From positions 1 through 34,510 of the forward strand of contig JADLHC010000087.1 in NCBI GenBank assembly GCA_020849035.1: a DNA stretch of 34,510 nt, given 5' to 3'. Numbering within the stretch: the first letter of the stretch is position 1; each line of letters starts with the position of its first letter. The stretch comes from Planctomycetia bacterium (GTDB lineage Bacteria > Planctomycetota > MHYJ01 > WSZJ01). This document shows, piece by piece, positions 3,265 through 31,751 of this stretch. The notes beneath the pieces are model-generated. The model did no database searches. It saw only the letters and a program-made list of their open reading frames with translations, and was not told where the DNA came from. A program made the translations under genes and the position numbers.

Positions 3265-3270
3265 GGGTGG

Positions 3271-3276
3271 ATTATA
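3271..3276 (-). promoter_or_regulatory. TATAAT -10 box placed 6 nt before the HEAT-protein ATG (leaderless-type)
   Basis: Minus strand: ccTATAATccacccATG. Confidence 0.6.
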
Positions 3277-8263: not shown

Positions 8264-8291
8264 TTGCTGAATCCGCCCGCCCGGGTAGTCT
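8264..8291 (+). promoter_or_regulatory. Candidate recA promoter: TTGCTG-16-TAGTCT
   Basis: TTGCTG 8264-8269, TAGTCT 8286-8291, ATG at 8320; -10 followed by GTACGCCC. Confidence 0.45.
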
Positions 8292-8319
8292 GTACGCCCA
8301 CCTTTTTCCGGAACGCGCC

Positions 8320-9364: not shown

Positions 9365-9395
9365 AACCGCATCCCGCCGCGGTTGTTATTCTTTT
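9365..9395 (+). terminator. Possible intrinsic terminator after recA (6-bp stem plus T-rich tail)
   Basis: AACCGC (9365-9370) / GCGGTT (9379-9384), 8-nt loop, followed by GTTATTCTTTT. Confidence 0.45.
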
Positions 9396-9444
9396 CGCCC
9401 CGTTGCCCGGCCATTTCCCCGAAAACCCACACCGGACCGCACCC

Positions 9445-15256: not shown

Positions 15257-15286
15257 TTGACACCCCTGCCGCGCCGCCGCTAGACT
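15257..15286 (+). promoter_or_regulatory. Candidate promoter of rpmF-plsX-fabH-fabD: TTGACA-18-TAGACT
   Basis: Perfect -35 TTGACA 15257-15262, spacer 18, TAGACT 15281-15286, rpmF ATG at 15319 preceded by AGGAG. Confidence 0.7.
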
Positions 15287-15318
15287 CCGCCCCCTTCGAC
15301 AGTCCCACAGGAGCCGAA

Positions 15319-22647: not shown

Positions 22648-22711
22648 TCCCAGCGCTTCTCACCGCCGCCCCCGCCGCATAAAGTCCGCTCTCCCACTTC
22701 GGAGCCCAGCC

Positions 22712-24223: not shown

Positions 24224-24276
24224 CCGTCGCACGATTCCTGTCCGCCCCGTCCAACCCCCGCTAGGATCCCGCCTCC

Positions 24277-25875
24277 ATGGCACGCACCCCGAAGCAGGAC
24301 AAGCCGGTGGCCAAGGCGCCCGCGAAGGCGGCCGGCGATCCCCTGGCCCGGCTGGAGGAGCTGAAGAAGCGGGCGCTGATCGGCGGCGGTCCCGAGAGGA
24401 TCGAGAAGCAGCATGCCGCGGGGAAGCTGACGGCGCGCGAGCGGGTGGACCTGCTCGTGGACGAGGGGACGTTCGACGAGGTCGGCATGTTCGTGACCCA
24501 CCAGTGCGACGCGTTCGGGATGGAAAAGCAGAAGTTTCCGGGGGACGGCGTGGTGACCGGGGTCGGCAAGGTGGACGGGCGGCCGGTCGCTGTGTTCTCG
24601 CAGGACTTCACCGTGTTCGGCGGGTCGCTGGGGCTGGCGCATGCGGGGAAGATCTGCAGGCTGATGGACCTGGCGATGAAGGTGGGGATGCCCGTCATCG
24701 GCCTCAACGATTCGGGCGGCGCGCGCATCCAGGAGGGCGTCGAGTCGCTGGGCGGTTACGCGGACATCTTCCTGCGCAACACGCTGGCGAGCGGCGTCGT
24801 GCCGCAGATCAGCGCGATCATGGGCCCCTGCGCGGGAGGCGCGGTGTACTCGCCGGCGATCACGGACTTCACGTTCATGGTCGAGGGGACGAGCTACATG
24901 TTCGTGACGGGCCCGAACGTGATCAAGACGGTCACGCACGAGGAGGTCACGAGCGAGGCGCTTGGCGGCGCCGCCGTGCACAACGAGACCAGCGGAGTGG
25001 CCCATTTCCAGAGCCGCAACGAGGCGGACTGCATCCAGTCCATCCGACGCCTGCTGTCCTACATCCCGGCGAACAACCTCGAGGAGCCTCCCGCCGTCCG
25101 CAGCGACGACCCGCCGGACCGCCGCGACGAGAAGCTCAACAAGGTCATCCCGGCCGACCCCAAGAAGCCGTACGACATGCACGACGTCATCGGCGCGGTC
25201 GTGGACCCGGGAACGTTCTTCGAGGTCGCCGCGAAGTTCGCCCAGAACATCATCGTCGGCTTCGCCCGCTTCCACGGACGCGTCGCCGGCATCGTTGCGC
25301 AGCAGCCCGCGGTGCTCGCGGGGTGCCTGGACATCAACTCGTCGGTGAAAGGCGCGCGGTTCGTCAGGTTCTGCGACGCGTTCAACATCCCGCTCGTGAC
25401 GTTCGAGGACGTGCCGGGGTTCCTGCCCGGCGTGGCGCAGGAGCACGGCGGAATCATCCGGAACGGGGCGAAGCTGCTGTACGCGTACTGCGAGGCGACG
25501 GTGCCGAAGATCACCGTGATCACGCGCAAGGCCTACGGCGGCGCGTACGACGTCATGTCGTCCAAGCACGTCCGCGGCGACGTGAACATCGCGTGGCCCG
25601 CGGCGGAGATCGCGGTCATGGGCGCGGAAGGAGCCGTGAACATCCTCTTCAAGCGCGAGATCGAGGCTGCGAAGGATCCCGCGGCGGAGCGCGCCCGGCT
25701 CGTGGCCGAGTACCAGGAGCGCTTCGCGAACCCGTACATCGCGGCGGGGAAGGGGTATGTGGACAAGGTGATCGAGCCCGCGGACACGCGGCGGGAGATC
25801 TGCCGGGCGATGGAGCTGCTGCGGACGAAGAGGGAGAGCGTGCCGTCGAAGAAGCACGGGAACATTCCGCTCTAG
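24277..25875 (+). CDS. pccB: Propionyl-CoA carboxylase carboxyltransferase (beta) subunit
   Basis: [58 protein letters not shown]...[15 protein letters not shown]...[52 protein letters not shown]...[16 protein letters not shown]. Asp in AYDVM is the PccB-type specificity residue. Confidence 0.94.
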
Positions 25876-28016: not shown

Positions 28017-28327
28017 AGCGGGATCGCGGGCATCGCGGCTCGTCGCCGCGCGACCGGAAGCCGGACGACTTCGTCCCGGGCACGAGCCGCCCGCTGCGCA
28101 ACGTGACGGTCGAGGAGGTCGAGAGGGCTCTGTTCGCCGACGGGCGAACGCTCGCGGATTTCGCCCTGCTCGAGTCCGGCCTCGCGCTTCGGCGCACGGC
28201 CGAGGGGCGCTGGGTCGCGGCGGTCGCCGGCGACAACGACCTCGCCCGCGCCGCCTCACGGTTCCTCCGCCAGCGCGGCGCGAAGACAATCACGTCGCGG
28301 GAGGCGCTCAGCGGCGGCGGGGTATGA
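28013..28327 (+). CDS. Small (104 aa) conserved-looking hypothetical protein coupled to the BCCP gene
   Basis: MKRDRGHRGSSPRDRKPDDFVPGTSRPLRNVTVEEVERALFADGRTLADFALLESGLALRRTAEGRWVAAVAGDNDLARAASRFLRQRGAKTITSREALSGGGV; ATGA overlap with BCCP stop. Confidence 0.6.
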   Translation: MKRDRGHRGSSPRDRKPDDFVPGTSRPLRNVTVEEVERALFADGRTLADFALLESGLALRRTAEGRWVAAVAGDNDLARAASRFLRQRGAKTITSREALSGGGV

Positions 28328-28334
28328 TCGGGGC

Positions 28335-29909
28335 ATGAAGCAGCCGCGGGAGCGCGTGGAGACGACGAGCGGGATCCCCGTGGACCTGGTGTCGACGCCG
28401 CCGGCGGCGCCGCCTGCCCTTCCGCGCCCCGGCGAATTCCCGTTCACGCGCGGCATCCACCCGGAGATGTACCGGTCGCGGCTGTGGACGATGCGGCAGT
28501 ACAGCGGCTTCGGGACGGCGGCGGAGACGAACCGTCGGTTCCGCTTCCTGCTCGACCGCGGCCAGACGGGGCTGTCGTGCGCGTTCGACCTGCCGACGCA
28601 GATGGGGTTCGACGCGGACGACGCGATGGCGGAGGGGGAGGTGGGGAAGGTCGGGGTGTCGATCGGGTCGATCGAGGACATGCGGGAGCTGCTGGAGGGG
28701 ATCCCGCTGGAGAACGTGACGCTCTCGATGACGATCAACGCGACGGCGTCGGTGCTGCTGGCGCTCGTCGTGGCGGTTGCGGAGGAGAGGGGAGTGCCGG
28801 CGGCGAAGCTGGGCGGCACGGTGCAGAACGACGTGCTGAAGGAGTACGTGGCGCGGGGGACGTACATCTACCCGCCCGCGGCGAGCCTGCGGCTGGCGAC
28901 GGACATCATCGAGCACTGCGTGAAGGAGATGCCGAAGTGGAACCCGATCTCGATCAGCGGGTACCACATCCGGGAGGCGGGGTCGACGGCGGCGCAGGAG
29001 ATCGGGTTCACGCTGGCGAACGGGTGCGAGTATTTGACGCACTGCGTCAAGCGCGGGCTCGACCCCGAGGCGGTCGGGAGGCAGGTCTCGTTCTTCTTCA
29101 ACGCCCACAACAACTTCCTCGAGGAAGTCGCGAAGTTCCGCGCCGCCCGCCGCATCTGGGCCGGGCTCATGCGCGACCGCTTCCACGCGAAGGACCCGCG
29201 CTCGCAGACCCTGCGGTTCCACGCCCAGACCGCCGGCTCGACGCTGACGGCGCGCGAGCCGGAGAACAACGTGACGCGCGTCGCGCTGCAGGCGATGGCC
29301 GCGGTGCTCGGCGGCTGCCAGTCGCTCCACACCAACTCGCTCGACGAGGCCCTCGCGCTCCCGACCGAGCAGTCCGTCCGCATCGCGCTGCGCACGCAGC
29401 AGATCCTCGGGCTCGAGACCGGCGTCGCGGCGGTCGCGGACCCGCTGGGCGGGTCGTGGTTCGTGGAGAACCTCACGGCGGAGCTGGAGAAGCGGGCGCG
29501 GGAGTACCTGGAGCGAATCGGGAAGATGGGCGGCGCGGTCGCGGCGATCCAGTCCGGGTACATCCAGAAGGAGATCGAGCGCGCGGCCTACGACGCGCAG
29601 AAGGCGCAGGACTCTGGGGAGGCGGTCGTCGTGGGCGTGAACGCGTACGCGGAGGAGGGGCGGGCGAAGATCCCGACGCTGCGCGTGGACGGAAAGGCGC
29701 GCGAACGCGCGTGCCGGCGGCTGGCGGCGCTGAAGAAGAATCGCGGGGCGAAGGAGGTCGCGCGGGCGCTCTCGGAGCTGCGCGACGCCGCGGCGGGGAA
29801 CGCGAATCTGATGAAGCCGATCCTGGGAGCGGTGAGGGCGAACGCGACGCTGGGGGAGATCTGCGGCGCGATGAAGGAGGAGTTCGGGAAGTACCAGCCG
29901 CCGAAGTAG
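28335..29909 (+). CDS. Methylmalonyl-CoA mutase, large (catalytic) subunit without B12-binding domain
   Basis: GIHPEMYRSRLWTMRQYSGFGTAAETNRRFRFLLDRGQTGLSCAFDLPTQMGFDADDAMAEGEVGKVGVSIGSIEDM...GTVQNDVLKEYVARGTYIYPP...FHAQTAGSTLTAREPENNVTRVALQAMAAVLGGCQSLHTNSLDEALALPTEQSVRIALRTQQIL. RQY and VAR residues match mutase Tyr/Arg signature. Confidence 0.94.
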   Translation: MKQPRERVETTSGIPVDLVSTPPAAPPALPRPGEFPFTRGIHPEMYRSRLWTMRQYSGFGTAAETNRRFRFLLDRGQTGLSCAFDLPTQMGFDADDAMAEGEVGKVGVSIGSIEDMRELLEGIPLENVTLSMTINATASVLLALVVAVAEERGVPAAKLGGTVQNDVLKEYVARGTYIYPPAASLRLATDIIEHCVKEMPKWNPISISGYHIREAGSTAAQEIGFTLANGCEYLTHCVKRGLDPEAVGRQVSFFFNAHNNFLEEVAKFRAARRIWAGLMRDRFHAKDPRSQTLRFHAQTAGSTLTAREPENNVTRVALQAMAAVLGGCQSLHTNSLDEALALPTEQSVRIALRTQQILGLETGVAAVADPLGGSWFVENLTAELEKRAREYLERIGKMGGAVAAIQSGYIQKEIERAAYDAQKAQDSGEAVVVGVNAYAEEGRAKIPTLRVDGKARERACRRLAALKKNRGAKEVARALSELRDAAAGNANLMKPILGAVRANATLGEICGAMKEEFGKYQPPK

Positions 29910-31244: not shown

Positions 31245-31250
31245 TATAAT
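31245..31250 (+). promoter_or_regulatory. TATAAT -10 box placed 6 nt before the mce ATG (leaderless-type)
   Basis: ccccTATAATccgcccATG; no Shine-Dalgarno sequence in the gap. Confidence 0.6.
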
Positions 31251-31256
31251 CCGCCC

Positions 31257-31673
31257 ATGAGCCACCCCTCGCTCAACCACATCGGGATCGCCGTCCGCCG
31301 CATCGAGGAAGCCCTTCCCGTCTACCAGCGCCTCCTTCCCGGCGCCCACGTCGAAATCGAGGACGTCCCCGACATGAAAGTCCGCGTCGCGAAGATCCAC
31401 CTCGCGAACGCGTGCCTCGAACTCATCGAACCCCTCCCGGGCGAGTCGGCCATCACCAAATTCCTCGAGAAGAAGGGCGAGGGCATTCACCACGTCTGCC
31501 TCGAGGTCCCCGACGTCGACGCCGCCACCGCCGCCCTCCAGGCCCAGGGCGCCACCCCCGTCTACCCGTCCTCCCGCGCCGGCTCCGGAGGCATGCGCGT
31601 CAACTTCCTGAGCCCGAAGGACACGAAGGGCGTCCTCTTCGAGCTCAACAGCCGAACTCCCCAAGGGCGTTAG
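31257..31673 (+). CDS. mce: Methylmalonyl-CoA epimerase
   Basis: MSHPSLNHIGIAVRRIEEALPVYQRLL...CLELIEPLPGESAITKFLEKKGEGIHHVCLEVPDVDAATAALQAQG...FLSPKDTKGVLFEL: vicinal-oxygen-chelate fold with H/E ligands. Confidence 0.94.
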   Translation: MSHPSLNHIGIAVRRIEEALPVYQRLLPGAHVEIEDVPDMKVRVAKIHLANACLELIEPLPGESAITKFLEKKGEGIHHVCLEVPDVDAATAALQAQGATPVYPSSRAGSGGMRVNFLSPKDTKGVLFELNSRTPQGR

Positions 31674-31680
31674 GTTTTCG

Positions 31681-31708
31681 TTGCCGTCCTTTCCCCCCTT
31701 CGTATAAT
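31681..31708 (+). promoter_or_regulatory. Candidate acpP-fabF promoter: TTGCCG-16-TATAAT
   Basis: TTGCCG 31681-31686, TATAAT 31703-31708; GGAGG SD before acpP ATG at 31752. Confidence 0.65.
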
Positions 31709-31751
31709 TCCGCCCTTCAACCCAGTCCCCAATTGCCGACGGAGGCGACGC

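Follow-up and report, generated by a model that had tools for sequence, protein, structure and literature searches.

A C-rich discriminator behind the -10 box in a planctomycete genome and its link to ribosomal-protein genes

The tract that follows the -10 box of promoters in this planctomycete genome is accurately described as a C-rich discriminator in which CGCCC is the commonest word; it is a statistical bias, and no rigid extended element. The positions, enrichments and conservation given below, together with a link to ribosomal-protein genes, are direct observations. By analogy with other bacteria, we consider it rather probable that the tract is a version of the familiar GC-rich discriminator in which C prevails over G, and that it couples growth genes to the state of the cell.

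The window, i.e. the whole stretch of 34,510 nucleotides that was analysed, makes up contig C87 in a metagenome-assembled genome from Planctomycetota (MAG; 5.42 Mb, 349 contigs, 89% complete, GC content approximately 70%), and the closest relatives of its acpP gene are from Planctomycetota. The sample comprised 1.81 Mb of the same genome, approximately one third of it, with the window included, and genes were called via a codon-usage model. The main enrichment counts were repeated with the window left out, and some contigs were held out from the first analysis. The MAG assembly contains no 16S rRNA gene and the rRNA promoters thus fall outside the analysis; an Rfam search of the window gave no matches.

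Promoters in the window and the leaderless class

An earlier, sequence-only reading of the window had proposed a recurrent composite element, a -10-like box followed closely by CGCCC. The 13-mer at 31703-31715, upstream of acpP, is TATAAT-TC-CGCCC exactly as given there, and the seven other instances (mce, HEAT, rpmF, pccB, alaS, recA and a secreted-protein gene) are all present. They are listed here with one counter-example.

31681..31686, + strand: -35-like TTGCCG of acpP, with a 16-nt spacer to the -10 box; congeners have TTGTTGC at the same place
31703..31708, + strand: -10 box TATAAT of acpP, kept at acpP in congeners and in several genomes of the same class
31709..31715, + strand: C-rich discriminator TCCGCCC of acpP, read from the sequence, with relatives similar
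31245..31256, + strand: TATAAT-CCGCCC of mce, adjoining the ATG at 31257; leaderless-type promoter
3265..3276, - strand: TATAAT-CCACCC of the HEAT gene, adjoining the ATG; leaderless-type promoter
24262..24276, + strand: TAGGAT-CCCGCCTCC of pccB, adjoining the ATG at 24277; leaderless-type promoter, spacer 9
15257..15294, + strand: rpmF (L32), TTGACA (15257-15262), 18-nt spacer, TAGACT (15281-15286) and discriminator CCGCCCCC (15287-15294)
9387..9401, + strand: TATTCT-TTTCGCCCC of alaS; leadered
8286..8299, + strand: TAGTCT-GTACGCCC of recA; leadered, spacer 28
22680..22691, + strand: TAAAGT-CCGCTC of the secreted-protein gene; leadered
28323..28334, + strand: counter-example TATGAT-CGGGGC, adjoining the ATG at 28335; leaderless-type box with G instead of C

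The acpP box ends 43 nt upstream of its gene. The earlier list was selective, in that the box at 28323 with its G was left out, and it pooled boxes at differing distances from their genes. It holds two classes, a division that was overlooked: mce, HEAT and pccB are of the leaderless type and the rest are leadered. In these three, only 6-9 nt separate the -10 box from the start codon; they are probably leaderless, and the stretch between box and gene would therefore be just a 6-9-nt discriminator.

Across the sample, the distances of upstream TANNNT boxes from their genes are bimodal, with a sharp peak at 6-10 nt and a broad one at approximately 23-40 nt before the start codon. There are 134 boxes at 6-10 nt in the 859 genes of the full sample, compared with seven for the reverse-complement control, and a Shine-Dalgarno sequence precedes 1.5% of the genes with such a box versus 29.6% of other genes. 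In the literature, leaderless genes are recognized by a TANNNT box near the start codon together with the lack of a Shine-Dalgarno sequence (PMC3160421). We infer that leaderless transcription takes place in this lineage; among genes preceded by a gap, some 15% have the leaderless appearance. The arrangement is similar to that in Actinobacteria and Deinococcus-Thermus, where TANNNT lies approximately 12 nt before the start codon (PMC3160421, PMC3898074), in that TANNNT lies 6-10 nt before ATG or GTG with almost no Shine-Dalgarno sequences. It differs in that the host belongs to Planctomycetota, unmentioned in the 2011 survey, and in a 6-nt discriminator with 54% C and 5% A. A search of the literature on leaderless genes in Planctomycetota found nothing beyond a single-genome nucleotide-bias note (PMC5397173); a share of some 15% would improve start-codon annotation and promoter prediction in a poorly studied phylum. 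C is also preferred at -1 (65%) and -2 (57%) before the start codon, even in genes without a leaderless-type box.

The C bias against null models

With the window excluded, CGCCC starts 1-3 nt after 21 of 206 leadered candidate -10 boxes (10.2%) and nine of 131 leaderless ones (6.9%), versus 1743 of 85236 intergenic positions taken on the gene strand (2.0%; leadered boxes against this background, p = 2e-9). The excess of the word thus withstands null models, the need for which the sequence-only reading had pointed out. For the leadered boxes, the excess also holds against T[CGT]NNNT hexamers at the same distance (21/800, 2.6%; p = 1e-5) and, less steeply, against TANNNT on the opposite strand (11/245, 4.5%; p = 0.015), where genuine divergent promoters may be included. 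After TANNNT inside genes, the rate is 0.3%. The word is the commonest 5-mer after boxes, at 4.2 times background. GGGCG, the GC content of which is the same, follows boxes in only 0-1.5% of cases (leadered, 0/206), so the bias is one of C rather than of GC content; GGG after leadered boxes amounts to 1-2% per position. In the first 6 nt after the box, G+C is 74% (leadered) and 85% (leaderless) versus 67% in intergenic DNA, and C is 47% and 54% (with A at 5% in the leaderless class) versus 35%. Unbiased de novo expectation maximization (EM) on upstream regions recovered TA-N-A-A-T and, behind it, a tract in which the positions are 51-61% C and 3-10% A.

These counts already contradict the reading that chance runs of C in a 70% GC genome, gathered by selective listing, account for the pattern. 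The high GC content, of which the earlier reading itself had warned, and omissions from its list such as the box at 28323 speak for chance. Against it stand a three- to five-fold excess over intergenic background and same-place non-TA hexamers, replication on held-out contigs (6/67, p = 0.006), the opposite-strand control, the asymmetry of C and G at identical GC content, and the count of the full promoter pattern given below (22 versus none when reversed). Pure chance from GC content was rejected on these controls and can hardly be right.

A fixed composite of box and CGCCC was also rejected. Approximately 90% of boxes lack the word, which has no single offset; C is also raised in the spacer between -35 and -10, so that part of the bias is a broad regional skew; and at leaderless promoters the word occurs at a rate of 0.072, as expected from column composition (0.073). 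The last three of these observations would also fit an alternative in which there is no regulatory element at all: a broad skew of C over G in the non-template strand around promoters, either mutational or arising from avoidance of G runs or Shine-Dalgarno-like G near the 5' end, with CGCCC as merely the likeliest word. The same alternative gains from the mce promoter of one congener, which has CGGCCG. It does not readily explain the leadered promoters, where the word rate is 0.119 versus 0.043 +/- 0.015 after column shuffling, nor why a Streptomyces replicon of equal GC content shows no such skew behind its leadered boxes. In the Streptomyces clavuligerus megaplasmid, the intergenic composition of which is the same, leadered boxes are followed by 32% C, versus 47% here, and by CGCCC in 0/21 cases (its leaderless boxes, 2/18, are too few to judge); for S. 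meliloti pSymB the figures are 27% and 0/38. Both comparators are plasmids with few growth genes, and the comparison bears on the general C bias only. With the gene distribution and conservation described in the next section also set against it, we regard the broad skew as a serious though distinctly less probable explanation than a C-skewed discriminator.

Genes with the strong form and its conservation

The word CGC[CT]C follows the box in six of seven ribosomal-protein promoters and in 39 of 249 other genes (p = 1.3e-4), or, with the window excluded, in 5/6 and 35/244 (p = 4e-4), although it was partly picked after inspecting ribosomal-protein promoters; the earlier list already contained CGCTC and CGCCTCC. 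For plain CGCCC, the proportions are 4/7 and 28/249 (p = 0.005). The functional link rests on these seven genes, which were picked by eye and then by Pfam from a list of small, basic proteins whose genes have a gap upstream. The test came after an indecisive Pfam sample of CGCCC-positive and CGCC-negative promoters (20 leadered proteins each), neither group of which was free of translation genes. The boxes of L34, L32, L13, L28, L27 and S16 are followed by C(C)GC[CT]C, with CTCCCCCCC instead at L25. Outside the test, S17 has TATACT-TCCTCTCCCCCC upstream and S15 has TATACG-TCCC, and CGCCCC is found at tRNA-His, tRNA-Asn and tRNA-Arg, three of the 15 tRNA genes found. Other promoters with an equally good TTGACA/TANNNT (of LexA-like, SMC-like, TetR-type and secreted proteins, judged by their N-termini) mostly lack CGC[CT]C, and this concentration in ribosomal-protein genes is not what a broad skew would predict. 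Promoter strength was considered as the cause and rejected; CGC[CT]C shows no steady rise with the match to the -35 consensus.

The excess at the level of the word and its functional clustering at leadered promoters might instead suggest the operator of a dedicated transcription factor that recognizes CCGCCC at the start sites of growth genes. The offset of the tract is, however, tied to the -10 box, there is no palindrome, and the word is degenerate (CGCCC, CGCTC, CCCCC) and present at many unrelated genes; we consider an operator very unlikely.

In each of these six ribosomal-protein promoters (L066, rpmF of the window, L020, L204, L220 and L019), only C or T occupies positions 7-10 behind the -10 box, which implies either a pyrimidine start or an unusually distant downstream start site. 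At E. coli rrnB P1, the starting nucleotide is the A of position 9 (PMC7822876). Growth promoters might accordingly initiate in a pyrimidine run, with CTP or UTP first, the C tract setting the initiating nucleotide or 5' end and not the stability of the open complex. The pyrimidines at L34, L32, L13, L28, L27 and S16 favour this, but some promoters have a purine at positions 8-11 (G8 in tRNA-His, G10 in tRNA-Asn, A11 in S16), and the sequence is compatible with more distant starts, and such a role for the tract seems very improbable.

A C-skewed discriminator is also consistent with what is found in relatives. Behind the acpP box, CGCCC, CCGCCC or GCGCCC stands at the same place in G002, G004, G009, G012 and G016, and CGCTT in G003; box and C-rich word are kept in congeners and in genomes of the same class (protein identity 74-80%). 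CCGCC also follows the box in planctomycete acpP loci of 46-50% GC, a finding for which composition cannot easily account. The alaS promoter reads TATTCT-CTTCGCCCC and TAACCT-TTCCGCCCC in two congeners; that of recA reads TAGTCT-GTAGCCC and TAGACT-CCGCCC in congeners and TACTCT-GCGCCC in G008, from another family. These footprints at acpP, recA and alaS speak against a broad skew. The mce promoter is identical in the congener G003, has TATAAT-CGGCCG in G004 and is different in a third.

The full pattern TTGAC-N17-19-TANNNT-N1-3-CGCCC, compared with its reversed form, occurs 22 versus 0 times in the genome itself, 79 versus 1 in the genus (five members, including this one), 80 versus 2 in two same-order genomes, 17 versus 0 in G008 and 18 versus 1 in family f5. 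Some other families of the phylum give 58 versus 0, 24 versus 2 and 21 versus 0; lower-GC families of the class do not differ from the control (approximately 10 versus 11). TATAATN0-3CGCC outnumbers TATAATN0-3GGCG by 55 to 10 in the genus, 95 to 22 in family f2 of the order and 128 to 78 in family f5. Of the earlier proposal of a lineage-wide extended promoter motif, the tendency to a C-rich discriminator therefore survives, throughout genome and lineage, and the single fixed motif does not: the word is missing after most boxes, is no commoner in the leaderless class than composition predicts, and is exchanged in orthologues, as at mce. GCGCCC or GCCGCC likewise follows a TANNNT box at the acpP loci of several gammaproteobacteria and an acidobacterium (L182, L189, L198, L178); this suggests that the acpP discriminator may be conserved far beyond this phylum.

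Mode of action and the question of ppGpp

The usual account of the GC-rich discriminator is control by ppGpp and DksA. The earlier reading had likened the tract to the GC-rich discriminator of stringently controlled promoters, and the likeness holds as far as a resemblance of the GCGCC type, the enrichment of CGC[CT]C at ribosomal-protein promoters and its presence at several tRNA promoters. Like the stringent sigma70 promoters of E. coli (rrnB P1, tRNA and ribosomal-protein), those described here at ribosomal-protein and tRNA genes have a G+C-rich stretch adjoining the -10 box and lack the GGGA motif for sigma region 1.2 downstream of it. Unlike them, they show a strong skew of C over G (CCGCCC rather than GCGCCNCC), most promoters of the genome share a milder C bias, a purine is often missing at the expected start, and the host phylum is reported to be without RelA/SpoT. 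A GC-rich discriminator in translation-gene promoters has been found in E. coli and not in S. coelicolor (PMC4681348); the present genome resembles the latter in its high GC content and TANNNT-type -10 box but differs from it in the enrichment. With mycobacterial rrnAP3 and other CarD-tuned promoters the likeness is that the GC content of the discriminator tunes open-complex stability (PMC10232725), although Planctomycetes are listed as lacking CarD (PMC4593161).

The GC content of the discriminator governs the stability of the open complex and sensitivity to DksA/ppGpp (PMC10232725, PMC7822876), as well as the response to supercoiling (PMC8422995); where it is high, open complexes are short-lived and promoters are sensitive to both. 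Promoter function, open-complex kinetics and growth control are inferred here by analogy with such systems. The promoters would be ordinary ones of the housekeeping sigma factor (TTGACN, 16-18 nt, TANNNT) and the tract their discriminator, which is generally C-rich and A-poor in this lineage. In a subset, enriched at ribosomal-protein genes and including some tRNA genes, acpP, recA and alaS, it takes a stronger form, with C(C)GC[CT]C starting no more than approximately 5 nt behind the box. The likeliest mode of action would be that of the GC-rich discriminator of E. coli rRNA promoters: without the GGGA contact for sigma region 1.2 and with costly melting, the open complex would be short-lived, and initiation would track the state of the cell (NTP supply, supercoiling or a DksA-like factor), so that growth genes are switched together. 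The ribosomal-protein, tRNA and acpP promoters should, on this analogy, be responsive to growth state.

Classical ppGpp control of these promoters is doubtful. According to published reports, Planctomycetes have no RelA/SpoT homologues (PMC3153485, from one genome; repeated in PMC8118318), and ppGpp is for this reason not assumed to be the signal; if it is truly missing, the signal must be something else. A tblastn search with E. coli RelA and SpoT gave no matches in the 1.81 Mb (one third of the genome), a weak result in that the controls recG and pyrG were found but gmk, trmH and mazG were not. A gene at L008:3991-4449 is predicted to encode a DksA/TraR zinc-finger protein from its zf-dskA_traR match (E = 3e-12). 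More tentatively, the growth genes of a phylum without ppGpp may have kept a stringent-type discriminator, in an almost C-only form and with a pyrimidine start region, the value of which is intrinsic (sensing of the initiating NTP or of supercoiling, possibly with a DksA-like protein) and does not depend on ppGpp; we consider this possible, though not the likelier outcome. If planctomycetes without ppGpp synthetases have indeed retained the element at their ribosomal-protein and tRNA promoters, it is separable from the alarmone, and older ideas such as NTP sensing and supercoiling would become directly testable.

Two further observations concern the genome itself. It has two recA genes (G000:C87:8320-9339 and G000:C36:13987-14967; protein identity 64%), as do three congeners (G001, G002, G004). 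A selenocysteine tRNA lies at L207:10746 and a SelB-like gene, seen by its N-terminus only, at L024:7866-9773, and the organism may therefore make selenoproteins.
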